In this document: piece after piece, positions 2,992 to 62,740 of the stretch
How positions within the stretch are numbered: the first letter of the stretch is position 1
Layout of the letters: each line of letters opens with the position of its first letter
Assembly (NCBI GenBank): GCA_964036195.1
Contig: OZ038456.1
Coordinates: forward strand, 8,804,001-8,868,000
DNA length: 64,000 nt
Direction: 5' to 3'
Source of the DNA: Sphaerolaimus hirsutus
Taxonomy: Eukaryota; Nematoda; Chromadorea; Monhysterida; Sphaerolaimidae
Program-made: the position numbers and the translations under genes
The notes under the pieces: model-generated
Database searches by the model: none
What the model was told of the DNA's origin: nothing
The model's input: only the letters and a program-made list of their open reading frames with translations

Positions 2992-3819
2992 GTTTTGTGA
3001 CCGCTTTTTGGACAGTTTTTTAGAAAACAGGTTTTTAAGACCTTTTCTGCAGTTGCGACGGCGAAATGAATGAGGCTAAGTTTCGTGCGAGGCCGCTTTT
3101 AATGAGCTCTGTGAGCGCTTGACAATTAAAGCGACGTTTTTACCTGTCGCGTTATCAGTGACAGAGTTGTTAAAATGGGTGACATTGTTTATTTTACCTG
3201 CAGTTGCGATGTGACAAACGTGCATAGAATGTGTCATGTAAACTGTCAAAAATTATATAAATACCCTGTAAAATGTCTAATTTTCTTTGATTGAACGTCT
3301 GCTAGTTTTCATAGCATTTGACATGACATTTGACATTGCATGGCATTTGACATTTTACAGGTACTGGGAGTGGCACCTGGTGATAGTCCCGCTACCTGTA
3401 AAGTGGAAAAAGTGTTAAATGTCATGCAAAATGTCAAAAATTTAATAATAATGTGGTTTCTATTTTAATTGACATTTTGCATGACATTTGACACTTTACT
3501 TAACACTTTACACGGTGCAAGACTGCTGCATTTTTTAAAATATTTATTGCATATTTTGTACTTACTTATTTATTTTGTGTATATATATACCTAGGTTTAA
3601 TAAATTAAATACGTACATTTATTTATGTCATTTTAACAACTATGTATTTATGTATTATGTATGTATTAACGTTATCACACATTATAGAACAGCTGGCTTT
3701 CTTCTCAAGAAAATACTTTTTTTCTTGTCTGTTAATCAAGCTGTTTGTTTCGTATGAAGTCGTTCTTGCAATTGACGTTGTTTGTTTTAGCAGCGTTTAC
3801 ACGGCGTCCCTGCGACGAC

Positions 3820-11100: not shown

Positions 11101-14100
11101 TTCACGTTACACTCAATCTTAGGGGGGGTATTTCGAGGGGGGGTTATTATTTCCTCAGCCGAAATTTAGGGGGGGGGGTATTTCGAGGGGGGGGGGGGGT
11201 TAATTCAAGGGGGGGGGGTTAATTCGAGGTAATACGGTATGCCTTTTCCAAAAAAAGTTTCTCAATTTTATTTACCGTATTTCCTCGAAATACCCCCCCT
11301 CGAAATACCCCCCTCGAAATACCCCCCCCTCTCGAGACCACTATGAAACAATCACCCCCCCCCCAAATTGAGTGTAAAGAGAACGTACATGACAAATACT
11401 GCAGTTTGTGTTCTGCGTAGTGCAGAACACACATGAAAACAATGTCGGAATCACGTTAGAACAGTGTTTATACAGTTAGACACCCTGTAGTTGCACGCGT
11501 CTATTTCCGTTGAGCGCTGCAATCCGGTTTTTTGGTTTTTGGTTTTTTGGTTTCTAGGTTTCGCTTCTCTTTTCGAATTTGTGTGTGGAAGCGATGGCGC
11601 GACGTTGATTTAGGTGTTGTTTGGTCATTCTATATTTTTCGCCTACATATTTTATTCTATTTGGCGCTCGCCGAATAAATGCACTACTAGTGATGTTAAA
11701 GGCACCGGGAAAAATGGCACCGCACCGCACCGGCACCTTTGCATACGCATGAAAAGGGCACCTGGCACCCTGGGGCACCGGCCAGAAAATGGCACCGCAC
11801 CGCACCGGCACCGGTGCCTTTTGGAAAAAATGGCACCGGCACCGAAGGGCACCGGCGGGTTGCCGGTGCTAGCACCGAAAGGCACCGCACCGGGCTGGAA
11901 TTTCTGAAGTAAATATCGGGCAGTTTCTCAGTGGTCTCACCTTTGGAAGTGCATATTTCCATGAATTTTCAACCGATTTTGATGGTTGAGAACTTAAAAT
12001 GATCATAATGATGTGGCAATCACTTTTAAGAAGCAATTACAATGATTACAAATGAAAGATAAATTATTTTTTTCACTACAATGTCCATAGCCACTATTGT
12101 CTACTGATCGGAGTCGTTACTGTACAGAGAATGAAACTATCTCTGTCATTAACTGACAACAAATTTTGAACAAAAAAGTAAGATAAATATAAAATATAAA
12201 AATGATTGAAAATTCGACCAAATTTTAGATTTGCTCATCAGATCACGTATCGGGTATAATGGATTTCACAGTATTTGATAGGAGGTTTACAAAATAGGCA
12301 AAAACGGTTGGGTAAATATATCACTGTTTTTTTAAATATGAATAAGCACATACTATGGACAAAATTGCACACCACATGAAGCCTTGGCCGGTGCCTTGGC
12401 CGGTGCCTTTCCCGGTGCCTTTTACTTTGGCCCTGGTGCTAGCACCTTTGGCACCGGCAAAAAAATGGCACCGCACCGCACCGGCACCGGTGCTATTCTG
12501 AAAAAAATGGCACCGGCACCGGCATGGCACCCCTGAAGATTGCAATGGCACCGCACCAGCACCGGTGCTGGTGCCCTTCGGTGCCCAGCACCGGGGCACC
12601 GGTGCCCCGGTGCCTTTACATCACTATGCACTACTTATTAAAAAACGGCTCGCCCCTCCTACTCGAACACAACTAAATAATTATTCAATCAAGAACTTGC
12701 GACACGGCCGCAAGCTTCTTTTGGTGCCGCGACCGTGGACATTAGGCACTTTCTAATAGTGTCTATGTTGTCGCCAGCCGCTGAAAAGCTCGCCAGCGGC
12801 CTGGCGTCTCCACGCAGCGGTCCGAATTGATTCGGCACCGCTATCACTGTGCACATTGGCCGCCGGACCGCGGTCACTCGCTGCACATTGCGACCGCCGA
12901 GCCGCGGTCCAACTCGCCGAGCCGACGCACTGAGGCGCCGGTTTTCGTGTGCCATTGTGGCTTGTCGGACTGGCCGACAGCGCCACCGCGTTCAACGTCG
13001 CCGACGCAACCACCCGGCGGCAACGTGCTCTGGTGCAGTCCGGGCACCAGTGCAGCGACACGCCGGACCGCTGTGAAGTTCGCCTGCGGCCTGGCACGTC
13101 TACACAACGGTCCGAGTCGACTCGGCCCCGCCACAGCACTGGGCTGACTGTCGCTGGACGCGACCAGCCCGGTATCAACTGCCAGCGCGCCACCGCGACT
13201 GGGCAGCACACGGCCACATCCGAGCGGTCCACGCCAGCGCCGACGCGACTGGCACCCGTCGCTCTCACAGCACTGGGCTGTAGAGCGATCCAGCTGGCCG
13301 ACGTAGCCAGCGCCGGCCATCGCGACCGCGTAGGTGCGGCCCGGCCAGTCCACACGCACGGCGCACACACAGCACTGGGCTGCGGTGCACCCTCCGGCCG
13401 ACGCCTCCCGCGCCAGGCTGACACGAGCGCCAACGCACACGCGCCCGGCGCCATCACAGCACTGGGCTGCTCGTCGCTGGACGCGACCGGCCCAGCCGCT
13501 ACGCGACCGCGCAGGAGCGGCCGCCACGACAGCGCCAACGCGACTGGTGTCTGTCGCACCCACAGCACTGGGCTGTGGTGCGTTCAGCTGGCTGACGCAG
13601 CGCGCGCCAGCGCAACGCGACCGCGCCCGGCAGCCCCATTGCCAGCGCCACCACGCCTGGCACCTATCGCACAGTAGCACTGGGCTGCTGTGTGATCCGC
13701 TAGCTGGCTGACGCACACCTGCGTCCCGGCATTTCAACGCAGTGGCCCGAACGACTCGGCGCCACTATCCAACGCGCAACTGACCGCTGGACAGCGGCCG
13801 ATACGTGCCAACGCGACTGCGCCAGTGCAGTCGTGCCCACAGTCGCAGTCACAAGACTGTTGGCTCCACTCCAAGTGCACCCGCCTGCACACAATCACGT
13901 GCCGCCATCGAAATGGCTGTCACTTCGGAGCAACTGCTTCAGTGCATCACCGATTTTGCCGATGCGAGGGATCGCCCAAAACTGCTGATCATCAAGGATG
14001 CTTTGGCCGGTGCACATGGCGCAGTCATTGACGACTGGCCGACTGATGACAAATGGGCCAAAATGTCCTTTGTCAATTTTGGCAACATGTTGCGCAACAC

Positions 14101-17100
14101 TGTGATAAGGCTGCGCACCGATTACAACATCACCGGTTTCGAAGTGCCTGGAATTGAAATTCCAGCTGCTAACGCAGCCTCAACATCCAACAACGTGCAC
14201 ATTGCCACCAGTGTCAATCAGTTGACACAAGTCATCAACAATTTGATGGCGCAAAGTGCACAGCAGCAGCAAGCCATGTTGCAAATGATGCAGCAAATGC
14301 AGCAATTTATTACGAGTTCGCAGGCAACGGGCCAACCGATGGCAAACTCGTCAACAGCCACGGCCCCAACTGGACAAATTTCCAGTCCCCCTGTCGGTAC
14401 TGGACCTGGGGGCAATCATTCTGGCTCGCACAATTCGCCTGCTAACTCAGTGGTCAATTCACCTGCGCCACTCCACGTGACTGGTTATACGCCAGCCCAA
14501 CAACGAATTTGGGCTCAACTACTGCAGCAGAATTACGACATGTTCGATGGTGATGATGCCATCAAATTCAAATTATGGCTCGAGGAGCTAACAGTCCGCA
14601 TCAACATGTTGGGTGCACCCGACAATATTGCGGTCCTACACATTCGCAAGTGCCTAACTGAACGGGCGCTACGCCAATTCGAGCGGCTACAGCCAGCCGC
14701 GCGCAGCACTTTCACACAAGTCTGCACATTCCTGGAATCGCAGTACGGGGATTGATTCGCTGCCCAGAGCGCAATGGGCAAGCTCTGCAGCGCACGTCAA
14801 GGGCCGAAAGAATTGGTCCGAGACTTCAGCCTGTTCATCGAGAATTTGGTGCAACAGGCGCTTCCTGCTGTGGCTGATGAGCCACTCACAGTGCAACTCA
14901 AGCACTATTTCATGGCTGGAATCCGTGACACAGCCCTACGAAAGGCGCTGTACACTCTGCCAACATTCCACATCATGCCTTTCTCTGAATTGGTAGATAA
15001 TGCGGAACGACTCGAATTCGCAGACAGACAGGACAAGGTGTCCCATTCAGATCGACACGATTCATCTACAACGAAGCCGAATAATCACTCGGTCAATTAT
15101 TCTACTACCTCAAAAGGTGGCAAGAAGCCATACTGCGCTTATCACAAGTCCAATGGCCACAATACAGCCGATTGCAAGGCTAGAAATCAAACCAGTTCAC
15201 AGAAGCCAACTGGTCCAGGAGCTCCGCGCTTCCCTCCGAAATCTGGCACGCCTGCCAGCAACAACAATCGATTGGGCAAGTGGTGCGAACACCACAAATC
15301 ACCGACACACAACACCAGCGAATGCTGGGCTCTGAAACAAAGTTCTGCTGGTGCAAATCCGCAGAGCACCAATTCGACTGGTCGTATCCAGCACATCGAA
15401 TGTGACAAGGGAACCGACGACACTGTGCGACGGGTCGAAACAAAAAGGGCCAACTTGGTCGTGCTGAAATTGGAGCCACCTACAAAATTGGCTCCAAGTG
15501 TACCGGTGCCACACTTGAATGGCATTGCATTCACTAATCACTTGGTCGATAATGGCGCCGATGTGTCTATAATTCGCCGGCACGTGGCTGACAAACTTGG
15601 CCTCATGCTGCAGCCAACCGAACACTGCATGACTGCAGTGAACCACACCACATTTCACAATCAGGGCTGTGTGGACATCGACACCACTTTCTCGGGTGGT
15701 AAAACGCGCCACACCTGGCAGGTGTCCGACGACATCGACCACGATGTTCTGCTGGGCCAGGACATAATGCTAAAACTTGGTGTCCAAATTCTGGGTGCTG
15801 ATGGCACTCCACTCATGCCAGTGGCTGATGAAGTCCGAATTGGCATCGACACGCACGACAAGCTCGTGCAAGTGTGCAAACTCGAGGATGATGACACGGC
15901 AATGCTGGTCGTGTTCACCAACACCGATGGCGAGCCAACCCGCATGGCTCACGTGCCCCTCATGGCTGAGGGCACCCATATGGTCTCTAAAGTCACGGAG
16001 ATCACCAAAGCCGATTGGGCATCGATGCTCAACATTGGCGATTGCAAACCGATGGAGCAGGCTCAACTTGTGGACAAACTGTTTGCATTGCAACATGTAT
16101 TTAGCTCCACATACTCTACTGGTGCATGCCAAAATGTGGATGAAATTGGCTGCACTGCAGTGGAGCATACGATCGACACTGGAAATTCGCTGCCATTCCG
16201 TGAGCCACCGCGACGCATCCCATTAAAATTACGGGATGATGTGGCCAAAATGCTACAAGATCTACTTAATCAAGGCTGCATTACACCATCTAACAGCGAG
16301 TACAGCAGCGCATTCGTACTTGCCCGCAAAAAGGATGGCTCGTGGCGGTTCTGTGTCGATTTCCGCCGACTACACAAATTGACTCGGCGGGACAGCTACC
16401 CGCTGCCACGCATGGATGACATGCTCGATTTATGGCATGGCATGAAGTTTTTCTCCTCACTGGATATCAAGTGTGGATACTACAACATCCGCATTCGGGA
16501 AGAAGACCAACACAAAACTGCATTCACCGCCTTGGACCAGTTGTACGAATGGAAGCGACTACCATTCGGCCTGCATTCAGCCCCTGCGACATTCCAGCAG
16601 GCTATGAACGACATCCTGCGGGATCACACCAAATATTGCTGAGCATATTTGGATGACATCATCATTGTGTCGGAAACATTCGATGATCATTTGCTAAATT
16701 TGACCGCAGTCATATCCACGCTAATGGATGCTGGCCTGCACCTCAATCCGAAGAAGTGCCACTTCCTGAAATCCCAGATCGCATACCTGGGCCATGTGAT
16801 CACACCTGATGGCATCAGTGTGGATCCAAACAAGGCGGCTACAATTTGAGATTACCTGCTGCCTCAAACAAAACGAGAAGCTGCCGCGTTCATGGGTTTC
16901 ACAAACTACATGCGGCGCTTCCACATCAATTTGTCACAACGAATGGCTCCGCTGCGGGCCATGTTCAATCGAGTGCCAACGAATGGTTCTAAACTTGAAT
17001 GGAATGAAAAACTAATAGCATTGTTGCATTCAATTTGTGCCGAGATGGGCAACCCCTGCAGTCTGGCTATGCCAAAGCCAGGCAATGGCTATGTGATCAC

Positions 17101-20100
17101 GAGTGACGCCAGTGCAGATGGCCTTGGGGCCATGCTGGAACAACCTGGTGACGATGGGCAACTGCGACCCATTGCCTTCGCCAGTCGGGCAACTTCTCCG
17201 ATGGAACGAAAGTACTCAGCTACTGAGCTCAAAGCCCGGGCCGTGATATTCGCCCTGGAGCTATTCCGTCCGTACATCACTGGTGAAAAAATCACTATCT
17301 ACACCGATCACTTGCCGCTGACACACTTGTTCCGAAAGAACAATCCTTCGCCGAGGCTCTACCGATGGTGCCTCATGATCCAGCAATTCGACATCACTGT
17401 CCGGTACAAACCGGGTGTCAAAAATCAAGTTGCTGATGCCCTGTCTCTTGCCCCCGCTGGTTCAGTGCCCGTGCGCACACCTGGTGACGACGAGGACTGT
17501 GATGCAGTTCTTGACCAACCTGAAGGCACACTTGACACAGTGTGCCACATTCGACTTGGGAAAATGGTTTCCAACCTGCCAATGCCATCAACTACAAATC
17601 ACACGGCTGGCAGCACTAAAATTGCAGCGATCACTTTCACCACTGCTGACGAAAAGCAGGATATGATTCGCTGGCATCACGAAGGTCGCTGGGCTTCTCA
17701 CGCCAATGCCCGCAAAACATATCAGCGACTCCGGCCATTCTATGCACATGAAACATGGCCCACACTCTGGGCTGACGTGGTTAATTTTTGCAATCGATGC
17801 AAAACATGCAAACAGCGACTAACAAAGTATGAGAATTTGCCGCTCATGCCTCGCCCACCTCCGGACCAGCCTTGAAAGCACTGGCACCTGGACTACTCGA
17901 CTTTTGTGCCGCCATCACATCCAGGCAATCGACACTGCCTGGTGGCCATTGACGCCATGTCGCGTTACATGGAAGCTCGAGCCTGCGCAGCTACCGATGC
18001 GAAAAATGCTGTGCGATTCTACAACGACATCATTGAGAAACATGGTGTACCCGAGGAAATTGTCACCGACAGTGGCACTCATTTCAAATGCCATGAATTC
18101 GAGAGTGCTTTGGACAAGCACAAAACCATTCTTCACACCACAACGCCGAATGCAAAAACTGGCAATGGCTTAGCTGAGCGAGCCATTCGCACACTGCAAG
18201 ACATCATTGCAAAAAAGCGCGCTACTGACAAACGTGCTTGGACTGCCATTCTGCATGAGGCGGTTACTGCATATAATGCTACTACGCATTCCGCTACTGG
18301 CGCTACTCCATTTGAGATTCATTTTGGTTCGAAACATGCCACTACGGGCTTGGAATTTGAATGTGATCCACCACTAATGGATTACTGGAAACACATCAAT
18401 GCACATGCCACTCGTGAACAGCAGCGAACTGCCGACAATTCACATGCCACGCGAGTTGAAACAAAATTCCAAATTGGCAACACTGTCTTCGTTCGAGACA
18501 CGATCGCAATGAGCGGTTGCAAAGCCAAGCTCGATCTGCCAAACTCACGCGAGGGCATCATCATCGCATTCACCTCTCGCAAGGCAGCCAACATTCGATT
18601 CAACAATGGGAAAACAAGAATCATGCCCACCAACATGTTACAGCCACGATTTGTCCCTGACAATGAAGAAACTGTGGATGATGACAATGTTTCTGTTGAG
18701 CTGTAGTATTGTCTTTGTTGCCTTGTTTTGTATTTTTGTAACAGTGATGAGGTGATCATTTTTTTATTACTGTCCGGGGACGTACAGTCTGAAACCCCCT
18801 GAGGAGTTAGACACCCTGTAGTTGCACGCGTCTATTTCCGTTGAGCGCTGCAATCCGGTTTTTTTGGCGCCATCTAGGTTTCGCTTCTCTTTTCAAATTT
18901 GTGTGTGGAAGCGATGGCGCGACGTTGATTTAGGTGTTGTTTGGTCATTCTATATTTTTCGCCTACATATTTTATTCTATTTGGCGCTCGCCGAATAAAT
19001 GCACTACTTATTAAAAAACGGCTCGACCCTCCTACTCGAACACAACTAAATAATTATTCAATCAAGAACTTGCGACACGGCCGCAAGCTTCTTTTATACC
19101 ATCTACGTACTAATATTAGTCTACAGGAGTTTTTACACGTCAGTTATTGAGCCCCAGCGTACATCACAAACAACGATTTTGTACTAGGATTTCAAAAAAG
19201 TTCTTGTGAAATAATAACCCTCCCTCGAAATAACCCCCCCCCCCCCCTCGTTTAACCCCCCCCCCTCTCGGGAGTACTATGAAACTATCACCCCCCGGGG
19301 GGTATTTCGAGGAAATACGGTATATATTTTCTTTAAAAAATTACACATCATTTGTAAATATTAGGTTGTAAACTAATGAAGTGTCTTTTTTTGATTTCAT
19401 ACAAATATACATTTGTGCATCCCACATTCTTTTGTACGTTGACCGATTTTGATGCCATTTGAGTATGTTGGGGTTTGGGGTCTGGGCTATGAAGAAATGT
19501 TTTTGTTTCCTCGAATAATCCCCCAGTCCCGAGATAAGGGGGGTCTATAAAAAGGTGGTCATTTTGCATGGCCGATCTAAACATTCACTTTGAACCTTAC
19601 TCACTCAGCCATTTCTGGGCCAATTTGGATCGTTCGACACTTAAAATGATCAGCACAACCAGAATATTCCATTTTTGTGGTCGGATTAGTGATGTCTAAA
19701 TAACGTATGCCGATTTGACCCAGTTTTTAAACACAAAAAAAAATTTTTTCTAAACATGCTATCATATACTTTAGACAATGGGGATTCATGTACCAAAAAA
19801 ATTATTTCAATATCTCTTTCCAATCAAAAGTAATAGAACTTTAAACTTCCGCCTCCCATACATGTAAATAACTAATCAAGAACGATGAATACAGATAACC
19901 TGAGCATAGAAATGAAACTTTCAGGTTTTTCTGATCATTTTAAGTGTTCATTGGTGAAAATTGGCTGAGAAATGGCCGAGATATGGATTTCTGAAGTCAC
20001 ATGTATTTGCTTGTCATGCAGATTTTTCTATTTATGGTTGGGAGGCGAATGTTTAAAGTGATATAACTTTTGACTGGAGAGAGATATTGAAATAATTTTT

Positions 20101-26700: not shown

Positions 26701-28255
26701 TTTCGCCTGAGTATAGCACACTGAGCGTACTCAGTGCATACAGTGCTAACTGCACGAAATATGGGTACTTCTCAAACCAATACTCAAAACCACTCTTATA
26801 CTCCAGCGACATTACACCTACAATGAAATCTACCATAACCCATCTGAATAAAAGAACGAACAAAAAATTTTTCATCATATTTATCAAAGCAATTTGATTA
26901 ATATGATGACAAAATTTTATGTTTGTTCTTTCATTCAGATGGGATATGCTAGGTTTCATTATAAAGTGTAATGTCGCTGGAGTATATCTTTGATCACATC
27001 TCTTTTACTTATAAATATGTGCAGTCCCAGACACCTGTAAAATGCTCTGTGAAATGTCAAATGTTATGCAAAGTGTCTAAAGTCATGGAAATGCTGTGGA
27101 AAATGGCAAATATGTTTGCCATTTTTCCAGGGCATTTTCATAACTTTTGACACTTTGCATGACATTTCACATTTTACAGGGCAGTTTACATTTCAACGTT
27201 TTTGGACCTTTTTTCTGTTTTGTTTCGCTTTTTCATAAGCACCGCGTATCAATTTTCATTGTATTTAATACGTTGAACTTAAGAGTGCCTTGAATTGCCT
27301 GAAAAATTCGAAAAGTATTTTCGAATTTTCGAATTTTCGAATTTTTTGAAAAATAAATCGATTTTTAAGTGTTTTTTCTAGGGGTGAAATAAAAATTCGA
27401 AAATTCCGGAAAAATTCGAAAATTCGAAAATGTTTTCGAATTTTCGAATTTTTTTTTGCCATCGTTAGCCATAACTGACCACTTAGACTCAGCGTACTAG
27501 TATTAGGATGCAATTACCGTATTACCTCGCATTATTCCCCCTCGAATTAACCCCCCCCCCTCAAAATGGGCTGGGGAAAAAATACCCCCCCTCGAAATAC
27601 CCCCCTCGGAATGATGTACGTTATGTACGTAACAAATACGTCATGTATACAATGTACATGATGTATATTACTGCTAATTTGCATTGCAGCTACACATAGA
27701 CTAGTTTGTGTAGCTATCTACGTTTTTATGTCCAAATATACCCCGTTGGGACACATTTATTACCTGTTTTGGGTACGCAAATGCCTTCTTTTTACTACGA
27801 TCCTTACGAAAATTTCTGACGAAATAATAACCCCCTCGAATTAACCCCCCTCAAATTTTGCTGGCGAAATAAACCCCCCTGGGCGTATTTCGAGGAAATA
27901 CGGTATTAGTTTACAGAAATGATCAGTTCACAAACTGTAAGGAGATCAACAAAATGACGATCGAGTTTCCAAATCGGAACCATGAAAACTTGCGTAGTGA
28001 TTCAAATCAACCCACCGTCTCAAAGTGCCTCTGAGTAACGCTGCCGCTTTCGTCGAAAATCATCACCATCGTATCCAAATAATGTTGCGCGGCCATCCCG
28101 ACTATTCTAGACAATGTCGGGCTGAGATGACTGGTTTCTTTGGCGAATTTGTTCAATCGCATGTCTTTCAGCGACGCACTGAAAGAAGCTTGTTGTCCAA
28201 GTGTTTCAGTGTGGATCAGGCACGCGAAGTAGAGAAATGCAACTAGTTTGAACAT
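23713..28255 (-). CDS. Secreted von Willebrand factor A-domain protein
   Basis: Five exons on the minus strand: 28255-28016, 25894-25704, 25057-24983, 24565-24279, 23813-23713. Phases match (0, 2, 2, 1), giving 297 residues and a TGA stop. Exon 1 begins with a signal peptide (MFKLVAFLYFACLIHTETLG) and ends in the metal-binding motif MIFDESGSV (DxSxS). Exon 2 continues EIGIQKFGVYSTSV and SRTNIA; exon 3 has KLIILWTDG; exon 4 has DLKTQGVCIIVIAIG and QLGQIQGC. These are the core strands and three metal-ion loops of a single VWA fold, used in extracellular adhesion. After the domain comes an unusual Gly/Pro-rich insert with the unit PSVSGGGxPGPQ seen twice. Exon 5 supplies the final helix (KTDFDEIEANVSGFLDKVQ). 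No transmembrane segment, so it is probably secreted. Ligand unknown. Confidence 0.9.
25270..25685. mobile_element. TA-flanked MITE, TTCTAATAGAAC family, expanded copy
   Basis: Starts TACCGTATTTCTTCTAATAG; the right end is decayed (TTCTATTAGAAGAAGTACAAT). GCCGTTCTATTGGAGGT repeats inside. It lies in intron 2 of the VWA gene. Confidence 0.65.
26271..27467. mobile_element. hAT-like MITE, GATGGCAAA-end family, copy 2, with nested insertion
   Basis: Ends TAACGATGGCAAA / TTTGCCATCGTTA; exact 8-bp duplication GCCATAAC at 26263-26270 and 27468-27475. TTCGAAAATTCGAA repeats lie near both ends. The middle holds other elements, including an inverted repeat at 26797-26986 (TATACTCCAGCGACATTAC ends) and an introner-related TGTAAAATG block at about 27024-27185. 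It sits in intron 1 of the VWA gene. Confidence 0.9.
27515..27905. mobile_element. TA-flanked MITE, CCTCGAA/G-run family
   Basis: Starts TACCGTATTACCTCG and ends TTCGAGGAAATACGGTA, with C runs inside and a core containing ACGTACATCATTCC-like sequence. It lies in VWA intron 1, just inside the preceding hAT-like element's flank. Confidence 0.8.
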
Positions 28256-39700: not shown

Positions 39701-42700
39701 ATTTTTTTCGAGTAAACGTAAATATGTTTTATCAACTATGGTGCAAAATGTCAAAAGTCATGTAAAATCCCCGGTAAAATGGCAAACGTTAATAGGTACG
39801 TTTGACATTTTCCACGGCATTTTTAGGGGGGCTGAAACCGCGACCAGATGCACTGCACACCTCTGATTGTGATCTCTGATCTCAGAGCTCTGATCCCGAT
39901 TTAATGTAGACGATTTTGCATCCGCAGTAGCGTTGTTAAGATGCAAAGAAGTTGCATTGTTGCTACTAGAGTTGGGAAAATTATCGCGATCGCAGTTAGC
40001 AGTATCTTTTTGCTTATTTTCCTTTCGATGGTGCAGCGATTTGCTCCGCAGCACCGGTTTGAGAAGTCGCATTTGAATTTAGAATTTTTCTGATAAAATG
40101 AATTATTCGCTATAACATTTGGCAATTGGCCAAAAATTGGGTGACGTTTGAAAGTAGGTATAACAGGCTTTTAAGGTGTGTAGAAAGCTAGAAAATGATA
40201 TAAAAAATTGCGAGAAAAAAACAAGGTAAACTACCTAAAAATCTATGTAGGTACTTGGTCCGGCTGAAAAGTCCCCGGGCAGTGTTCGCCATTCGCGCAA
40301 GGGGTAAGCTACGGTCACATTAGATTAGTGATGGAAAAGCGCCATGGCGCTGGCGCTTGGCGCTAGCGCCAAAGCAAAAAGCGCCATGGCGCTTTTGGCG
40401 CTTGGCGCTAAAATGCTCTGGCGCCATTGGCGCTTGGCGCCGAGAACTGAGAAAGCGCCATGGCGCTTTTGGCGCTTGGCGCCATTTTCTGGTGGCGCTA
40501 TTGGCGCTTGGCGCCAGCATTTTCAATGGCGCCAAAAAAGCGCCAACCATAAGTATACAAAATCCAAAAAGAAGTCCAGTAAACAAGTGGACTTAACGAT
40601 TTCTTGCACCTGACAAATTTTTGTTCCCAAGCCCTGTTAAATTTGCATTTGATCACTGTGAGTACCCTAAAAACATCGAAATGTTGCATAGGTAGGTTGT
40701 CCAAAATTGCTCCTCATTTACTCCTCAGAATTGCTCCTAATTCCAGCTACCGTATATCCTCGAATAAGACCCCAGTGAGTTATCATTTCGTCAGTAAGTT
40801 TTGTAGGGGAAGTTACTCAAGGGGGTGTTATTCGAGTGGGTGTTATTCAAGGTGGGATTTTTTCAATTTACCCTCTCGGAATTTACCACCTCGTATTTAC
40901 CCCTTGAAATTCACCCAGGTGCGAGTGAGCTGGAGAAATACTACTCTCCCCTTGAGATGCACTCACCGAAAATGCATGTAAAATAAAATAAGTATGTAGC
41001 TTGTATAAAAAGGTTCTAACGTAACAATGTGGTTCTTTTTAACGTCTGTTCTGCATTGCCCGGGTCACAAACCGCAGCTTTAGTCATGTATGTTCCCTTT
41101 AGGCCGGATTAGAGCTCAGCGTCGATTCGACGTGAAATGATGACGTGAAATGACGTCGTGAAATTAATTACACGAGTGTGGATCATGCTACGGGTCTACA
41201 ATTTTCTAAGGATAATATATGAATCAATACCTTAATCGTGTCCAATACTGAGTGTTATCAGCCACAACTAGAGCGAATTGAAAATTCAATTTTTATCATT
41301 CCACGTCATCATCATTTCACGTCGAATCGACGCTGAGAATTCCCGCTTTACATACAATTAGGGGGGGGGGTATTTCGAGGGGGTGGGTAATAATTTCATA
41401 GTGTCCATTTGGGGGGGGGGGGTTATTTCGAGGGGGGTATTTCGAGGAAATACGGTAGCTGGAAAAAAATGCTCCGGGGGGGGGGCTGTTTGGGACATCG
41501 TGCTGCATAATAAGAACTGTTTTTACTTTGGCGCTGGCGCCATTGGCGCTTGGCGCTATAGCTTCCTGGCGCCGTTGGCGCTTGGCGCCGTGGTCCAGAA
41601 AAGCGCCATGGCGCTTTTGGCGCTTGGCGCTAAAACGCTCTGGCGCCATTGGCGCTTGGCGCCGTGGACCGGAAAAGCGCCATGGCGCTTTTGGCGCTTG
41701 GCGCTAAAAGCCTGGCGCTTTTTCCATCACTACATTAGATATCAGGTGTTTTGAGTTTTCACCCGAAATTTCACCCCTCTAGCTCCACCCGCTGCGGAAC
41801 TGTGGGGGGTTAGCAATTTCGGTCATTTTGTAGTGATGTACACATGGTGCTCTAGCTCAACGCTGCTTTAAGTTGTGATCATGAAACTTTGGCTAGTGTA
41901 AGCCATTAGTGTTGGCAATGTGCCAGTACTAACCAACATTAGCTATGATATCATAAGCCTAGTCCATATTGCCATTACTGTCACTACTCTCACTACCAAA
42001 TTCATCATTCTGCCTCTCCTTCTCAAAATAGCCCCCTTGGAGTCTACTCACTGCTGTTGAACACATGAAACATAGGGAAGTTTTATTCACATGATTCATT
42101 TACTGCACATTTCAAAACAACATTAAAATCACTGCAATACAACATGATCTCAGATGGTCACCAAAAACATCCATCACAGTTCCCACGTTTCATGCACATC
42201 ACCCTGATCTGCATATTAATTTTACCTTAATAGCAATGATGTTAATGAAAGTGTTGAATACTATCAGCACATTGCCAACACTGGTGGCTTACACTAGCCA
42301 AAGTTTCATGATCACAACTTAAAGCAGCGTTGAGCTAGAGCACCATTTGTACATCAGTACAAAATGACCGAAATTGTAACCCCCACAGTTCCGCAGTGGG
42401 TGGAGCTAGAGGGGTGAAAACTCAAAACACCTGATATATTAACCTGTCAAAATTTTATGACCGTAGCTTACCCCTAGCGCGAATGGCGAGCACTGCCCGG
42501 GGACTTTTCAGCCGGACCAAGTTCAAATACCTAAATATTAATACAGATAAAATTGTTTTTTTTAACAAGAAAAATGTTAAGTGAATTGGCAATTTTGAAA
42601 GTGAAAATGGGCAAATTTTGGCGGCGTGTATGGCGCAAATTCAACAATGAAATTATGAAGGTACTCCGATAAGAAAACAATCACAGCAAAAAATAGGTGT

Positions 42701-45700
42701 TTAAGTGCGCGGTGAAGCGTCGTGAAGTGTCACGTCGACGCTTCCCGACGCTTCACCAAGCTGCTCTGCACTTCCACACGCTTCACAAAATTTTGCGTGA
42801 AGATACTTCACGCTTTTAAATATGGTGCTGGCTCGCAAATGTATACGTGCGTGAAGCGTGTGGAAGGGCCAAGCAGCGTGAAGTGCCTTCCACATTTTTG
42901 GAAGCGTGTGAAGCGTTGGTGAAGCTAGGTGAAGCGTGTGGAAGACACTTCACCACAAATTTCAGGATTCTTGGTGAAGCGTGCTGAAGGGTGTGGAAGC
43001 GTGTGGAAGCGAGCCGCTTCACGCGCATCCAGCCCGCTTCCCGACGCATCACACACCCATTTTTTGCTGTGAATGTGTGCGCTTGCATAAAAAGATCCGT
43101 GAAAGGAATTGTTTGATAAATAATTGATGTACATTAGTATGCGTGAAAGTGTAAATTGGTATAATACTGCAAAATCCGACCGAAGGTCCAGAGCGTCCTC
43201 TGCTAGTATACCAAATACCTAGATACCTACCCACCTAATAGTACTCAAAAACTCGTCAGCCGCACTGATCTGAATGGTCTGTTCATTCCTTATAACCAAT
43301 TCCAGGTCGCTACCAGCGGTTTTCACTAGAAACAGCCGATATGTAGCTGTCAATTCATTCGTCGGCCCTGCGTGCGAAATTCATTGAGAATTTATACTTT
43401 CGGACACTTGGTAAATGTATTTACCGTAAACCATCGAATAAGCACCCCCCCCCCCTCTCGAATAACTACCCCATGTTAACTGAGTGAAGAAAGTGACTAC
43501 TCGCCGGTCAGAAGGTCTGAGGAAGGACTAAATAAATCCCCCGGGCATTCATTTGGGTATATACGGTAGTACGTCACATGGTTTACAGTGTGGCCCATTG
43601 AGAATTGATGCTTGCGGGGAAAAATTTGGAGCGGAAACGGGATATCGGGCAAAAGTGTAAATATCAACAGAAATATTTACCTAAGAAGAACCATTGTAAT
43701 ACAAAAAGGCGGAGTTCCTTGCTGAGATCACATAAATATCCGTTCACATAAATAAATATTCTCCAAGATCACCGTATTTCTTCTAATAAAATGTCATTCC
43801 TTAAAATAGAAGGACACCCGCAATAGAATGTCACGTTTTGGCACATTTTTTCAGTCACGAAGAAAAGAACGGCAGAAAGAAAAGTCGCATTGGAGAGTTC
43901 CAAAACACCAAAATAAGAAAAAATGAATATGCCTAACCATTCAAATACTATTCACATTAAATTTTTAAATTGATGCTCTGATATTAATCGACATTGCTCA
44001 ACTTCCATAAAAAAAATTATTTTCAAATGAAAAATACGTGAAAATATAAAATGGCAACCCCAAATATAACGACACCGCCATCTCGGTGCAGAAATTCATA
44101 TAATACGCAAGTCCGCGTGCACAATGCATTGCACAACACAAAGTGGTGCAATATTCGCCAGATATCTTGCAGAGCAATGCATTTTTAATGAAGTGCCCAC
44201 TTTTCTTTGGGTGTTGACGATTATCTCGCAAAATGCAGAGATGGGTTGCCAGCAAATGGAAGTGTTGATCTCGTGGTGAAGCGAGAATAAAATTGATGTG
44301 AGCGGAAAAATGCATTTGGTATTACTTTAATGGTGGTGGGTTTTGTAAAAATCTGTCGGTTTAGATGCAATGCAATGCGATTTATTTAATGTTAATCATT
44401 CTTTCAAATTCAGCCTTACACACGCATACATCATATACATATAAAAAGAGTGCAAAAATTGCACTGCCGCAAGCGGGAATCGAACCCGCGCCTCTCGTTT
44501 AGAACACGAGCGCCGTAACCGCTGGACTCCATCTGGGCCGCTTGGCTCTACTAGTAATAACTATAATTGGCTTAGATGCCGCAATTTTCAGTTTCAGGCG
44601 ATTTCAGAAGAAAAAAATAGCAAAAATAAAAAAATTAAAAAAATAAAACAAAAATAAACGTACCGGCGACATAACAGAACCGAAAGGCGAGACACCTGTG
44701 TATTCTGCGATCAGTCCTCAAAGACGCCACTTTCAGTTTGCATCGAAATCTCTGCCCGTTGATAGTGTCCACTATGAACTCGCCCGCGTCCACATGAAAA
44801 AAGGTATTTGAAATCAAATTAATGGGCCTACACGCACTGGTCCACCCACAACTATTTACCGTATTACCTCGAATTAACCCCCTCTCCTTGAATATACCCC
44901 CCCTCGAAATAATCCTAGGTCTGAGCGAGCTGAGAAAAATATGAAGTCCACTCGAAATAAACACTTATCATTGATGCATTTTTGCTGTTGGAGTATGCAG
45001 AAGTTTAAAATTATTCTGGCGAAATAAAAGAGCCCCCTCAAATAAGCCCCCTCGAATTAACCCCCCACTCAACATTTGCTGCCGAAATAATACACCCCAT
45101 GGGGGTAGTTGACAAAGTTGACAAGAAAATCGTTGAAAAAAATTGAATGGCAGCCTTTAAGTCCAATATGAAGAATAGCAGCTAAAAAAAATTTGACAAA
45201 AAAATTGGCTGACGCCTTTCAATTCGAATAGATACGGTAACTAAACGATGCACCACCAAACCTCAATCTCCACAGCCAATCTGTCGACATTTTCCACTTC
45301 GAAAATCTTTCTCAAAGGTCTGGTGTCGCCGGCGCCGCAATTTTCCGCCCACGATGACGTCATTATATAAAATCCCCGCGTGGGATTTTCCACCGATTTT
45401 GTCAACTCGGGGTCGCCGAAAATGTAATTTTGCGTAGATTTTGGATCGTTTAAATTGACCGTATGAAAATTAGTTACATTCGGGTCGGTCACAACTCTTT
45501 TAGATTCTCTGTAATAATTGTCGTCTTTCTCAAGCTGGCGCCAGTCCCAGACCCTGTCAAATGTCATGTAAAATGTTAAATGTCATACAAAGTGTCTAAA
45601 GTCATGTAAAATGCACTGTAAAATGTTAAATTAAATACAAATTGTCTAAAGTACTGTAAAATGTCATGAAAAATGTCAGACAGTCTGCAAAAATTTACTT

Positions 45701-48700
45701 TATTTTTGACACTTTGACATTTGACATTTGCATGACATTTGACATTTCACAGGGCTTTTTACATGACTTCTCACACTGAGAATGACATTTGACATTATAC
45801 AGGACATTTTACAGGGTCTGGGAAAGACACCTGAAACGGGCGATTATTATCGACACTGATCAAAAAGTTCCGCCTGGGGGCACTCCCAGACCCTGTAAAA
45901 GACCATGTAAAGTGTCAAAGACACTGTAAAATGTCATGTGTCATGTCAAAATGTAAGATTTGGATACCAAAACATAAGATTTAGATACGATAAAATAAGA
46001 TTTGGATAAGATAAGATAAGACACTTTACAGGGTCTTTTGCATGACATTTGACACTTTAAAGGGTCTTTTACATAACACCAGACATTTTACAGTGCCTTT
46101 TACATGACACATGACACTTTACAGGGTCTTTGCCACTGCACAGGGTCTTCTACAGGGTCCGGGAGTGGCACCTGGCCGGGAGCCAATCTGCGCACAGCCT
46201 CGTCCGCTCGCGCAGTTCGCTCAGCGCGTCTTGACGCAAATGCTGCCGCGACGCGCTCGCGAAGCAGCGAATCGTGCCGTCGGCGGCGCGACTGCACAGT
46301 GCAGTCGTGCAGTCGGGCTCATTAATGGCTGATGAAGGGGCGGCCGCACGGTGTGTGTGGCGGATTGGGGGGGGGGTGGCACCCCCCCCCCAACATGAAA
46401 TGTTGGGCTGGCGTCATGTCGTGTAGGCATTTACCGTAATTTTTCGAAATACACCCCCCTTGAATTGACCCCCCCACCCCACTCGAAACACCCCCAGATG
46501 TTTTTGTGCTGAGAAAAAAATACTCTCGTTGAAATACCCCCCCCCGTCTGGAATAAGGTTCATCATGTATGCAATGTACATGATGTATTTATTGCCGCCA
46601 ATATTCATCGCAGCTTCACATGTTTACATACAACGTAAATAGTAACCTCGTTTGAGTATCCATCTACGTTTTTACGTCGAAATGTATCGCGTTTTATCAC
46701 GTTTATTACACGTTTTGGGTACCTATTTAAAAGCCCATCTTTATTATGACCCGCCTCGCAAATTTCTGGGGAAATGATACCCCCGTCGAATAAGCGCCCC
46801 CTCAAAATTTGCACTCTGAAATTAACCCCCTGGGGATATTTTGAGTAAATAGGGTATCTACGTCTACACGTACACTCCGCGACCGAATGCTATGCATTTT
46901 TCTGAACGAAACACTCCACCATGACGTCATCGTTAGTAAAATTACAGTTGTTTCCAAAAACAAGAAAACAACATGATTTAAGGCACGAAACATATGTTGG
47001 TTGTACTCGACTCCGCCTTTTGTCTTAAAAAAAACTTTTTATCTTTTTGTGAAAGTGCGGGCATATGCATGTTCGGTGGACTTGACACTCTGGACTCGCA
47101 CTGATTTGCGTCTCGTGTTGGAATTGTGCCAATTAGATAAAAGCATAGGATTTTTCTTAAAATTGAAAAAGTCGTTGTCGTGAATACTGTCATTATGTCA
47201 ATGTATAATGTCATACAGCAATGAATTTTTAAAAAAATTTTATGATAATTGCACGCGCTAAATATCGTTGGCACGCTTCCAACGTCACCACGCGTGCAAG
47301 GTGAAAAGTGATCCGAATATAATATGTGTCACATGGATGCGTTTGCAGGTAAGACAATGATTCATAGCCGAATGTAAGTAAACCGTTGTGTCCGCTGGAG
47401 TATAATAAAAAATAAAACAATCACGTTGACAACCAACGCGCACAATTTCTGCGCTCAGCCGTTTGTCTGGCGCCTTACGCGCGCTTTATAAGGTTCAATT
47501 CAATTCAGATGAAGGCGTCAGTTCGCAACCATTCAAAGTGCCAAATCACATCGCCACACGCCTGCATTAACTAAATTGTTGGCACACTGCCCAGTATTGG
47601 ATATTGTTACGGTGGGGAGGCTTCTCTTTTTAACCGGTCTCCCCGGCGAATGACGATCCGTGAATTTCTCCGTATCTGCCAGGGGACATAGGCGCGCCTG
47701 TGTGGGTGGGTATAATATTTATGTACTGTTTTACAGGGGTATGCTTGAATAGACCCCCCCCTGTATGAGCTACGTTGCGTGGTTTGTATTGTAGAATTGC
47801 GCAGTTTAGAATTTTGTGCTAGCGACATAGTGCCACAGCAAAAAGGCACTAAGGAGCAAGAGCGCCATGGCACTGTTTTCTTTGACGCTAGCACCAAATT
47901 ATAAATTTTCAGTGCGCAAATTGTCAACCTGGGGGCAGTCCCAAGCCCTGTAAAGTGTAAAGTAAAGTGTCAAATGTAAAGTCAAATGCAAAGTCAAATG
48001 TCAAAAGTAAAGTCAAATGTCAAATGTAAAGTAAAGTGTCAAATGCAAATTTAAATGCAAAGTCAAAAGTCAATTGTCATGCAAAGTGTCAAATGTAAAG
48101 TAAAGTGTAAAGTAAAGTGTCAATTGTGTACCCAAATCTTATTTTTCTTATCCAAATCTTATGTTTTTGTATCCAAATCTTATGTCGAAAAATAAGATTT
48201 GGATACGAAAACACAATATTTGGATACGAAAAATAAGATTTGGATACACAATTAACACTTTACTTTACATTTGACACTTTACTTTACACTTTATGTTACA
48301 TTTGACACTTTACTTTTTACATTTGACTTTGCATTTGACCTTACATTTGACACTTTACTTTACACTTTACAGGGCTTGGGATTGCCACCAGTGTGCCGCC
48401 TGTCAAAGATGAAAAGTAACCTAACGCTATTTTATGTACTAGGTAAATATTAAGTAAGTACATACCGTATTTCTTCTAATAGAACGTCATACCTCCAAAA
48501 GAATGGCAGCCTCGAATTGAACGGCAGTCTCCAATAAAATGGCAGGTAGAAATTACGCTGGAAGTGTGCCAAAACACGAAATATAAAAATAGATGGTGAT
48601 AACATTCAAAATATTGAAATATTGATGTTAAATGTCATATTGATGCTCAAATAATTAAATGTTGCTCGAGTTTCATTAAAAATAAAAATGTGGTCGAATG

Positions 48701-53634: not shown

Positions 53635-54732
53635 CTTGTTTGCACCATTTCCAATTTTAGCGCCCGGCCAGGGGAGGGGGCCCTTCCGCACCCAGTAAAG
53701 TATCACGTCAAAAGCCATGCATAGTGTCAAATGTCAAGTAAGGTGTCATACAAATTTGTCAAAATTAATGCAAAATGTAAAAAGTTAGCAGTATTCTTTT
53801 TAACTTTGTTGACAGTTGACATTTTTCTTGCCATTTGACACTTGACATGACACTTTGCAGGGTGCTGCGGGACTGGCACATAACACGCCCGAAATAATAA
53901 GCAATTTTGAGTGAAAATTGGGGAAAAATTGGTCAAAATCTGTCTCAGATAGATAGATAGGTAACCTTAATATCCAACCAATTGCGGGGGGGGGGGTTCA
54001 CAGCAAGGGATAGTTGCCAAAAATTGATGGATAGCTGGGCTACGTCTGGGGTAGATAGCTGTCCGATTTAGGGGGGGGGGGGGGCGGGGGTAGCCCCCTC
54101 CCTCAACCCCCATTTGAGACCCCTAGAATGTCCTGTCCTGTGCACGGTCAAGCGAAGTTTCAGTAATATTGCAAAGCAGTTTCGAAAATCTTCCTTTTAT
54201 TTTTGCCACTTGACTGAACACTTGACAAGTTTGTAAAAGCTGCCAACCTATCAATCAACAGTTGACAAATCATTCATGTCAACTGCTTTTGTCAACACAC
54301 TATATCTCTACCAAATGCCGTGCACTATAAATATAAGTTAACACTTTTCACCTTGTTATACAGGAACATGGGAACGCTATCCCCCCATGTTTATTTGTGC
54401 CAGTGAAATGCGAAATGCATTTATCTCAAGTTAGAATATCTTCCCTTCTTTAATCGCATTTCGCTAGGGAAGGGCACTTAGGCTGATTTGGGTGTGTATG
54501 CAAATGTGCTATGAGCGACAATAGGAAACTCGGTGATAATGTCCGTCTACCGTAGACCCTTGAATAAAGCCCCCGCCCCCAACCGGGACGCTTTTTTCGT
54601 AGAGATCTTCAGTGTGTTTTAATTCAAGTTTGATGTTTGGATTTGCATGAAAATTATCACGGTATTTTTAGATTGTAAGATGCAATTTTCCACAAAAAAT
54701 ATGCAAGATATCGACCGAAGCGATGCGATTCT

Positions 54733-58145: not shown

Positions 58146-61100
58146 ATGAACAATAAAATGCCAAAATCATTAGCCGAAATCTCGAATCAATATTTTCTGA
58201 CCATAGTGTTGATCTTGAGTAGCTCAAGTAGCAGCGTGGACGCGTACAAGTACCTGAGCTGCAACAGCATGTGCTGCGAGTGCGTTAGCACCTCGAGAAC
58301 TATGAAGGCGGATTATGTTAGGTTGAAGGTTTGTTGGAAAAAGTGTCCCATTTTTATGTGATTTTTTATTTATTTTAAAGTTTACATAAAAATTCTTCGA
58401 TAAGCTATTGAGTGGTAGAAGCATCAGAGTGTCAACAATTTGAAAGGGGTATTAGCTTTGTAAAATTGATATACCTAGGTAAAGTGATTCAAAGCTGAAA
58501 AAACTCTTCGGAGACACTCACTGAAAGACTGAAATATAAACAAAAAAGATTCTTTTTCAAAGATAAGTTTCACTGGTATTATAGTCTTTTAATTAGAAAA
58601 AGTTGTCGAATATATACAAATACTAATTAAAGCATAATTTACACCCACAGAATGATATTTTTGATGGCTATGAAAAACATGTGAGGCCAGTTTTCAGTCA
58701 CAAGACAGCTATTCCAGTCAAAGTTCAAGTCAGATTAAAAGCTTTAGTTGATGTGGTTTGTTTTTTGGAATTTTTTAACTTAACCATGAATTTCTCTCTA
58801 AAAACTTGTATCAATTTCCTTGACAGAAAGAGGCAGAACAAACAGTTGTGATTTCACAATCATTTGGACTGGTCAGTTTGGTAGAATCTTTATTATTTTC
58901 CACAATTGATGGATTTATATTTATCATGAATATTATTTAATCTTCACCTCATTCTTTAGATGTATTGTTTATACATATATAGATGTATATAGATGTATTT
59001 TTTACTATTTATGTATTAATTATTGTGATTAAAAGCTACACTTCCCAGTATTGGATTGATGAACTGTTGGCATGGGACAAACACAAATACAATGACATTG
59101 ATAGCATGCTTATAGCTGCATCAGAATTATGGTTTCCAGATATTATCTTGTATGAGAGGTTGGTTTATCAGTTTTCTTATAATTTTTGAAGAGTTATTAT
59201 CCCCTGCTTGTAGTAATTGATTGAACTTTTGTAGTAATTTCTATAAACTACTACATGGAATGCTTTTGTTTTTATACTCATTCCACCATTCCTAAACTAC
59301 TGTTTCATTGCCGGTTAACCAAGTTTTTTTTAGTATATATCAGTATGACAGTGTGTGGGAATATTCTCTAAACATATTCAACACTGTTGAGTATTTTAAC
59401 TAAAACCCCCCAAAAAAACAAAAAAGCATAAAGGCAACAAAAAAACCTTAAAGTGTGAGGGATAACACACGACTCATTTTCCAGCCTGGGTGCCATAAGC
59501 CCGCTCAAAGATGATGTGTCATATGTCACAGTGTGGTCAGGTGCCAATCCCAGACCTTGTAAAATGTCCTATAAAGTGTCAAAAGTCACGCAAAGTGTTT
59601 AAAATCATGTAAAATACGGTGGCGTGGATAATGGCAAACGTAGATTGCCATTTGCGATATTCCAGGGCATTTTACATGACATCAAAACACTTTGCATGCC
59701 ATTTGACAATTTACAAGGCATTTTACAGGGTCTGGGACTGCCCCCAGATGGAAAAACCAAAGTTACTTGGCCTGAATTGACCAGTTTTCACTGCGATTTT
59801 GAGGTGGTCGAGTTTCCATTTGACGTGCAGGAATGTGTCATGACTTATGCCAGTTGGAGATTTAGGTTAATTTTTAAAAGTTTTTTCAAAAATGAAGATT
59901 TTTTAAAATATTTTTTTTTTCAATTCAATTTGCAGCACTGATGAGGTTGTTGCTTGGCCAGTGGGCAGTGGGAAGGAACTCATACCTGATTTCAAAGAAA
60001 ATGGAGGTAGGCAATTGAGCTTTCGTTGGCACGCTGCCAGTGAAGACATGATAACTGTGCATGCAGAGTGTCAATTTAAATTGGTGTAATTACATTTCAG
60101 AATTTGAGCTGATGGAATTTTCTGTGGACTACAAGAATAGGACAGGTTCCACTGGCACATCGGCCTTCAGTGAAATTTATTTCAAAATGGTAATCAGAAG
60201 GCGGCCGGAATATTATTTAATTACACTTATTGTCCCAGTTTTTGCAATTACAAATCTGGCTATTATTGGTATATTTTCCCCATCTTCTGTTTCACAGGTT
60301 TGTCAAATTAGTAATGTTCGAAATTTTTGACACTGTCAGAACATTTAATTTTTGTGACACGTTTTTGTGACACTTTTTTGTGATAAATAAGCCAGCCACT
60401 AGTCAATTTTCATCTAAAAAAACTCCCAAATAATTTCACAATCCGCAAAATTTTCAGGAAAGAGGCGAAAAAGTGTCAATGGGATTGACAGCGCTGCTGA
60501 CGACTTCTGTCATGTTGCTCATGGTTTCTGACATGATGCCGAAATCACTTAAAGGGTTGCCCAGATTGGGTTTGTTTATTGACCTTGGATTGGCATTGCG
60601 GGGGTTAAGTAGAGCGGGGATCCCCCCTCAAATACCCCACCCGGAATACCCCCTCAAAATGGGCTACCCCTCCAGCTACCGTATTTTTCGACGTCAGTGT
60701 ACGTAACAAACAACAATTTACTACTGGGATTTCAATAAATTTCTGGCGAAGAAATACCCCCCTCGTTTAACCCCCATTCAAAATTTCCACTCTGAAAAAA
60801 AAACTCCCCGTGGGGTAATTCGCGGAAATACGGCATCTATTTTCCCCAGGTACCGCTCAGCTATCCAACGATATCGCGGCAAATTTTTCGTATACTTTTG
60901 ATTTTGAAAAATCTGGAGCAACTTTTCAGAATATTTCGCCCGCATTTTCACTCAAAATTGCTGATTTTCGCACATTTTCATACATTTCCGGTTTCAACCC
61001 CCCCCCCCCTAATCGCAGGCAGCTACATCCTGTGGGAAATGACAATCACCACTCTGTGCACTGTGATCGCGGTGGCTTGTATGTACGTTCATAGTGAAGC

Positions 61101-62740
61101 CAGTTTTGGGGAACCCGTTCCAAGGTGGGGGTGGGGGTTATTAGTCTTGATTTTGGGTCAGGTAACACTTACAGAAAATGTAAAATGCCCTGTAAAATGT
61201 GAAACGTGATGCAAAATGTCAAGTGATGGAAAATGTCAAATGTCATGCAAAGTATCAAAAGTCATGGAAAATACCCTGGAATACGTCAAATGTTTTTTTC
61301 TCGTTTACCGGTCATTTGAAGCTTTTGATGGCATTTTCTATTGACACTCTGCACGACATTTGACATTTTACAGGTTCTGGGAGTCACCCCCGGGGTGGAT
61401 TCTGTCATGTAATATTTTATTGCAACTGTGTTAGAGTTACCACATCTATTAGTAGATCTAATCTAATTAGGTAAATAAATATTTACATCTAATCGTAGAC
61501 GCACACACTTGAATTAAGTAAATCTGATACACACTTCTATATCAGAGAAGCGCGTATTCAGCCTCCCCCAATCGTTCACTATAACCCAACAGACCCGCTT
61601 CTTTATGTGACTAAAACCACCGTGGCCAACCACCCCATGACGATTCGAGAACCCCTCAGTAAACCAACCCAAAACCCCCTCAGATGGCTTCTGCGCGCCA
61701 CGGGTCTCTCGCACAAAGCGCCCGACGGCAGCCCCGACCAGCCCGAAATGGACGATGACATAATGGGCGGTGACCAACTGCACCGGGACTATATTAAGGT
61801 GGACCCGTCGAGTAAAGTGACGAATCGAGAACGGTTGGGCGTGACCGCGCAGGGCAGCGGCGATGGACCGGATACAGAGGGGGATGTGAAAGTGAGCGAT
61901 TTGGGGTTAATTCAGCATGTGGAAAACTGTTTATTAAAGGACACTTTTGAAGTGAGAAGATAAAGTGAAAAGAAAAGTAAATTTATAAGTGAGAGGTGAA
62001 ATATCAAAAACGTTTTTAGCGTTTTCTTGTCAGTTGCCATTTGACTTTTTACTTGCCATTTCATATCGCACTTATAACTTACTTCTCTAGAAAAAGGAAA
62101 ACATGTCGGGTGTCACATCAAATGTCCGGTAAAATGGAGGAAAAAATGTTTCCGGGTGGTAGCGCTCGATATTTCACTGCGCGGGGATGGCCCCGTTTCA
62201 ACCTACCCACCCCCCAACAAACGAAAAGAAAAAAACACACCTGAAACCCCTACCTATACTCCGGTTACTTTACACCCTGCACGCGTGGTTCCCGCTGGAA
62301 GTGTGCCAACGATGGTTAACGCGTCCGAGTTTCATAAAAAGATGACAAAATTGATTGTTGTTATAATGTTATTCATTAACATATTCACATCGATGAATTT
62401 TTTTCATAATTTTACGGAAATCGCATGATTTTAATAATCATTGGCACGCTTCCAACACGAGACATAAATCAGTGCGAGGGCAGAGTATCACGTACGCCGA
62501 GTATACCCATAAAACCAACAAAAATCCCCCACCCAGAAAAAAACAAAGAAAAAACACCAAAAACTCATCCATACACCAACACCCCCCCCCCCCCCCAAAT
62601 CCCAGACGAGCCACGAAGACCTGTCGGGCGAGGGCGGCCTGCCCGACAACGCGGGCGAGGCGGGCACGCCCACCGACGCCCGACTGCCCGTCACCACGTT
62701 CGGCTCGGCCGGCAGGCGCAAGTTGAGGGAATTTGAACAG
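58146..62740 (+). CDS. Cys-loop ligand-gated ion channel subunit (nicotinic receptor-like), 3' end outside window
   Basis: Exons: 58146-58328, 58651-58755, 58827-58871, 59049-59158, 59485-59540, 59748-59865, 59936-60006, 60101-60297, 60458-60569, 61019-61124, 61546-61951, 62606-62740; phases match throughout. A signal peptide (FLTIVLILSSSSSSVDA) precedes an extracellular domain with YEKHVRPV, YWIDELLAWD and LWFPDIILYE. The Cys-loop is CDFEVVEFPFDVQEC (13 residues between cysteines). M1 is YYLITLIVPVFAITNLAII; M2 is EKVSMGLTALLTTSVMLLMV with GEK before it, as in cation channels, and a central leucine; M3 is SYILWEMTITTLCTVIAVA. Exons 11-12 encode the intracellular loop ending RRKLREFEQ, the usual lead-in to M4, which must lie beyond 64000. 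No adjacent cysteine pair is seen in loop C, so it is not a classical alpha subunit. The exact end of exon 11 is uncertain (61917 or 61951). Confidence 0.9.
59541..59747 (+). mobile_element. Introner-like element, family 1: exact intron 5 of the channel gene (207 bp)
   Basis: Exon 5 ends GTGTGGTCAG; the intron begins GTGCCAATCCCAGACC and ends GGTCTGGGACTGCCCCCAG; exon 6 begins ATGGAAAAACC. The split codon restores ...TVWSDGKTKVTWP, a typical receptor stretch. The whole intron is one hairpin: TTGTAAAATGTCC near the left pairs with GGCATTTTACAGG near the right, and TGCAAAGTG / CACTTTGCATG-type blocks pair inside. No extra intron sequence lies outside the element. Confidence 0.9.
61150..61398 (+). 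mobile_element. Family 1 introner-related element in intron 10 of the channel gene
   Basis: A TGTAAAATGCCCTGTAAAATG start and GACATTTTACAGGTTCTGGGAGTCACCCC end in inverted arrangement. Its ends do not coincide with the splice sites at 61124 and 61546, so it sits inside a longer intron. Confidence 0.6.
62256..62507. mobile_element. Inverted-repeat element with TATACTC ends
   Basis: Begins TATACTCCGGTTACTTTACA and ends ACGTACGCCGAGTATA, with GGAAGTGTGCCAACGAT and ATTGGCACGCTTCCAAC inverted blocks. It lies in intron 11 of the channel gene, and is the same family as 36316-36578. Confidence 0.7.

Follow-up and report, generated by a model that had tools for sequence, protein, structure and literature searches.

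Introduction

The fifth intron of a nicotinic-type Cys-loop receptor gene in the nematode Sphaerolaimus hirsutus coincides with what appears to be a single mobile element, which raises the question whether this element made the intron or came to occupy an older one. Introners have been reported from few animals, and the transposon from which they derive is often not known. According to the consulted part of a published survey, introners are elements that enter exons and turn into introns, and most of them fit DNA transposition; certain families bring one splice site with them and recruit the other from the duplicated target, so that the mRNA keeps its length (PMC9860276). Among animals and land plants, the same partial text places introners in only two groups, both of them animal, with copepods named (PMC9860276).

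We analysed the 64,000-nucleotide stretch of contig OZ038456.1 that carries the gene (hereafter the window), starting from a preliminary description in which intron 5 was read as one inverted-repeat element and as a strong candidate for active intron gain.

Architecture of intron 5

The receptor gene (58146–61962, plus strand; coding span of the model) was assembled by eye and with a script. The model comprises 11 exons and encodes 460 aa after splicing, with GT-AG borders at 10 of 10 predicted introns. Pfam identified Neur_chan_LBD (E 1.2e-40) and Neur_chan_memb (E 5.6e-9) in the spliced product. Among solved relatives, des-2 and acr-23 scored highest, ahead of other acetylcholine-type receptors; a search for protein relatives scored none of its 4755 candidates at E <= 0.001. 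Intron 5 (59541–59747, plus strand; 207 bp, phase 1, GT-AG) is predicted from the gene model, from Pfam and from alignment over the join, since solved acetylcholine-type receptors align through the junction of exon 5 (59485–59540, plus strand, ending ...VSYVTVWS) and exon 6 (59748–59865, plus strand, starting DGKTKVTWPEL...). Excision of the 207 nt joins TCA G|AT and yields VWS-DGK in frame. Read-through of the element was considered and rejected because in-frame stop codons follow, and an alternative acceptor within the right arm, the AG of TTTACAG near its inner edge, was dismissed by eye, as it would add 19 nt.

Over its whole length, intron 5 is one MITE-like inverted-repeat hairpin. Its left arm (59537–59600) and right arm (59685–59748), both given on the plus strand, measure 64 nt each, are 81% complementary and stand 84 nt apart, which confirms the preliminary reading of a single inverted-repeat element together with the ends, coordinates and sequence assigned to it. 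The predicted RNA fold of 59541–59747 reaches -87.7 kcal/mol (z -10.45) and was equalled by 0 of 200 shuffles; the DNA fold of 59538–59747 has a z of -11.45. The intron ends in CAG (59745–59747, plus strand), which would provide the 3' splice acceptor, and the same triplet precedes it (59538–59540, plus strand) as the end of exon 5. The acceptor AG therefore probably belongs to a target-site duplication and not to the transposon. The transposon proper is probably 59541–59744 on the plus strand (204 bp, GTGCCAATCCC...GGGACTGCCCC), shorter than the intron by one CAG, with its ends deduced from the 14 complete copies described below. An element spanning from donor G to acceptor G, as originally described, is thus exact in its coordinates, while its last bases are probably supplied by the duplicated CAG.

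The element family

Searching the genome (348 Mb, 762 contigs) with the 207-bp sequence, as the preliminary description had proposed, returned 2421 unconfirmed first-look candidates, and matches were present at 40 of the 40 places that were scored, the window copy being one of them. At the other 39, identity to the query was 78–82% in the better orientation; the 40 places gave 80 matches, on both strands each, because the element is near-palindromic. The dispersed repeat family expected of an introner is thereby found at all 40 scored places, seven of which were read in sequence and the other 33 of which are known as search rows. Within the window, blastn with the element returned 40 rows, of which two are the copy itself and the remainder group into 11 other regions, bearing out the earlier remark that relatives are scattered over it.

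Eight loci were read with 1.5-kb flanks, L001 being the window copy; L008 proved identical in position to L004 and was left out. From the window and L001–L007, 14 complete copies with paired ends were collected by fuzzy end patterns that favour CWG; the family ends are GGGGCANTCCC-like. Unpaired or degenerate ends were omitted, in the window at 3351, 3377, 8245, 24892, 32933 and 61159–61392 and in the loci at 351 (L002), 299 (L006) and 1027 (L007), as were further partial blastn matches, e.g. 27021–27190, 39743–39823 and 53819–53879. The degenerate copy at 61159–61392 (plus strand) lies within intron 10 of the receptor gene (61125–61683).

When seven copies were aligned and compared with their majority, the window copy differed at 24 of 198 positions and the other six at 8–13 of about 198. 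By this measure of difference from the majority, the copy in intron 5 is not a young one. Of the proposed active intron gain, creation by the element is well supported, and ongoing activity is not supported for this copy.

One complete copy of the window (47929–48391, minus strand, CTG/CAG) lies without clear coding context. Its portion 48190–48391 and similar copies contain short near-tandem units, e.g. CATTTGACACTTTACTTTACA, and the element may change in size by growth and shrinkage of such internal repeats.

Flanking triplets and element ends

All 14 complete copies, collected with patterns that favour CWG, read CWG-[GTG...]-CWG; two unpaired ends carry other triplets (TTG, CGG). With the copies oriented by their GT end (script), the flanking triplets are CAG/CAG in six, CTG/CTG in three, CTG/CAG in four and CAG/CTG in one, and this sole CAG/CTG copy (in L006) has its CTG in common with an adjoining copy. 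The triplet is identical on both sides in 9 of the 14, against 7 of 14 expected with independent W, which is near chance, so that the reading as a 3-bp duplication draws chiefly on a CWG rule from the literature. All 14 copies begin with GTG at the 5' end, and 12 of the 14 show GGGG at the 3' end when it is read inward; in most copies this 3' end also supplies a CCCC tract before the CWG.

The rule in question is that of the NuwaI transposons, PIF/Harbinger-type elements for which the consulted part of the source gives a CWG target duplication and terminal inverted repeats usually starting GGG (PMC4482050). Taking this into account, the CAG pair flanking the element probably represents a 3-bp CWG target duplication, and membership of the element in NuwaI appears likely from its ends and flanks. 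As far as that source was available, the family resembles the NuwaI group of PHIS (PIF/Harbinger) in its putative CWG duplication, its terminal inverted repeats and the GGG at one end, and both are known from animals; in contrast to NuwaI, it is non-autonomous, its 5' end is GTG and its copies are intron-like (PMC4482050). Since one end is NuwaI-like and the other carries the splice donor, the element should act as an intron in one orientation only.

Copies in coding context

Ten of the 14 complete copies were judged to lie in coding sequence, in that an open frame runs on across the excised copy. Three of these assignments are backed by Pfam (in two genes), one (L002) by a sub-threshold match and six by the open frame alone. 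The ten copies fall within seven loci and thus represent fewer than ten independent cases. In 10 of these 10 copies the GT end is the 5' end on the sense strand, and this orientation bias is suggestive, with L002 and L007 also open on the opposite strand. The four copies without clear coding context are the window copy at 47929–48391 and three in L006, among which one is CAG/CAG.

For L004, an alpha7-like receptor, a partial seven-exon model with a 282-aa open frame was obtained. It carries two family copies, CAG/CAG at RP|D and CTG/CTG at IA|W, and with both excised the Pfam ligand-binding domain spans both joins (E 4.6e-68). At two sites, window intron 5 and RP|D of L004, the ends of a copy thus coincide with those of a predicted intron. 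Both of these Pfam-supported coincidences lie in nicotinic-type receptors, and further ones are indicated by open frame. Aligning the two receptors, L004 is uninterrupted at the position of window intron 5, while window introns 2 and 3 match L004 introns 1 and 2 in position and phase. Over the comparable window introns 1–8, two of eight are common to L004, and those absent are intron 5 and the non-family introns 1, 4, 6, 7 and 8; the window gene, in turn, is without two further non-family introns of L004. With five non-family introns likewise missing from L004, the missing intron 5 provides only mild evidence for gain. Vertebrate alpha7 is not known to have an intron at this position either.

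Two further copies of the window lie on the minus strand at 45535–45833 and 45874–46174 (both triplets included) and flank a 43-nt exon (45831–45873). The second and third apparent introner-derived introns of the window would accordingly be 45535–45830 (minus strand, CAG/CAG, phase 0) and 45874–46171 (minus strand, CAG/CAG, phase 2). The frame, ...WLPAR|RNFLISVDNNRPFQ|LEKDDNYYRES..., stays open across the two joins, and each copy is bordered by CAG at either end, so that a single gene has apparently acquired two adjacent introns. For its product, Pfam listed no family at E <= 1, and nothing convincing was found in the PDB.

In L002, L003, L005 and at two copies of L007, the frame likewise stays open over the excised copy; long frames also occur in another phase or on the opposite strand in L002, L003 and L007. 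L003 is the weakest coding case, with 20 and 27 codons and a longer frame in another phase. The sub-threshold match of L002 is to a cuticlin C-terminal region and lies only downstream of the join (Pfam, E 0.00092). When the joined products were submitted to Pfam (six, then five overlapping), only the receptor L004 and the below-cutoff L002 were named, and the comparison of L003 and L002 pieces with the PDB gave nothing useful. By-eye readings of L005 as an LRR C-terminal region and of L003 as BTB-like were discarded, being without a Pfam match. Read-through of the copies in L003 and L004 was rejected by eye as well, given in-frame stops.

Origin of intron 5

The anatomy of the hairpin, its membership in a dispersed family and the restoration of the frame are read directly from the sequence. 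We propose that intron 5 is an introner, derived from a non-autonomous PIF/Harbinger NuwaI-like MITE that inserted into an uninterrupted exon, and we hold this explanation with good confidence. The MITE would have inserted at a CAG and duplicated it. Because the 5' end of the element starts GTG, the upstream copy of the triplet would then form a good donor, CAG|GTGCC, while the downstream copy, placed behind the CCCC tract from the other element end, would form the acceptor. Splicing out the element and one CAG would restore the old reading frame exactly, with no codon changed. Within this model we infer that the spliceosome uses the intron 5 sites, that the CAG arose by target duplication and that the element was mobilised by a transposase of NuwaI type. 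The exact fit of element and intron, the dispersed family, the CAG pair and the frame restored upon excision all support an intron made by the element.

The preliminary description had named invasion of an already existing, old intron as a case that would speak against this. Under such a scenario, the MITE entered an older intron at the same position and the original intron sequence around it was lost. MITEs of this family do occupy existing introns, as the degenerate copy in intron 10 demonstrates, and with five non-family introns also missing from L004, the missing intron 5 proves no gain. Still, we regard invasion as unlikely, as intron 5 consists of the element and one CAG with no leftover, L004 is intronless at this position, which adds mildly, and the ligand-binding domain of L004 is itself interrupted by two further copies. 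Slightly less probable again is a hairpin that is not spliced at all, making the locus a disabling allele or a pseudogene, with the good splice sites a by-product of CWG targeting. Splicing of intron 5 is predicted from sequence alone, and the CTG/CTG copies lying in coding sequence without an AG (L003, L004, L005) illustrate that exon insertions need not be spliceable. Against this stand a receptor model that is otherwise open over 11 exons despite the 24/198 differences of the copy, the canonical GT-AG intron that CAG yields, and the single orientation of the ten copies judged coding. A chance inverted repeat in an ordinary intron, finally, is hardly conceivable: it is refuted by the family, with 39 further scored places at 78–82% identity, and by the RNA fold at z -10.45. 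The insertion of a MITE into an uninterrupted exon is therefore our preferred explanation. If correct, the target triplet itself would explain intron creation in one step, CAG being both a preferred exon end and an acceptor.

Comparison with known introners

On this basis, the element probably constitutes an introner family. It shares with some introner families of PMC9860276, as far as covered by the available text, that the element would bring one splice site and the duplicated target the other, and it differs from them in being a hairpin family of its own, in an animal; that portion of the paper contains no mention of CWG or CAG targets. The introners of Amoebophrya, a dinoflagellate parasite, are described in the consulted part of their report as hairpin introns with inverted repeats and 3–5-nt direct repeats at the exon/intron boundary (PMC7789003). 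The hairpin with inverted repeats and the short direct repeats at the boundary are common to both systems. In contrast to those introners, which are supported by RNA-seq and mostly have highly variable splice sites (PMC7789003), we find a fixed GT end paired with CWG, and intron 5, as predicted from its sequence, has GT-AG sites rather than the non-canonical ones typical of Amoebophrya. Another animal, Fritillaria borealis, offers a further comparison: many of its introns escape GT-AG, and introner transposons with weak splice sites are given, in the part of the text at hand, as one possible source (PMC13326754). Unlike in F. borealis, each of the 10 introns predicted for the receptor gene has GT-AG borders here, and only the CTG/CTG copies hint at non-canonical introns. 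Among the titles and abstract openings returned by searches of the open-licence PMC literature, we found no paper on this hairpin family.

These CTG/CTG copies make up three of the ten copies in coding context (L003, L004 at IA|W, and L005, copy at about 1499–1696) and have a GT donor without an AG acceptor in place. By eye, the next exonic AG keeps the frame in L003 (3 nt, 1 codon lost) and L005 (18 nt, 6 codons lost), so that GT-TG splicing is not forced in two of the three; in L004 it shifts the frame and deletes the conserved FPFD. It is possible that the CTG/CTG copies are spliced as GT-TG introns or else that some of them do damage. With 4 of 14 copies, compared with one CAG/CTG, the CTG/CAG class could represent CTG insertions in which an AG was later selected, small as these numbers are. 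We therefore put forward, as a tentative and rather doubtful extension, that one transposon gives rise to introns at both targets: GT-AG introns at CAG, and at CTG hairpin-aided GT-TG introns that drift to CTG...CAG as AG is selected. If true, a series from insertion via non-canonical to canonical intron would be visible in a living animal. Should the many candidate relatives act alike, direct tests would become possible of how introns are gained, how splice sites are recruited and what becomes of insertions that have no AG.

Other features of the window

An LTR-type retrotransposon is located at 14756–18703 (plus strand), with protease-like, reverse transcriptase, RNase H and integrase regions in separate frames (Pfam); the frame adjoining it, 13784–14752, gave no Pfam family. 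A single tRNA-like Rfam match is present at 44473–44528 on the minus strand, scoring 34.2 bits against a gathering threshold of 29.
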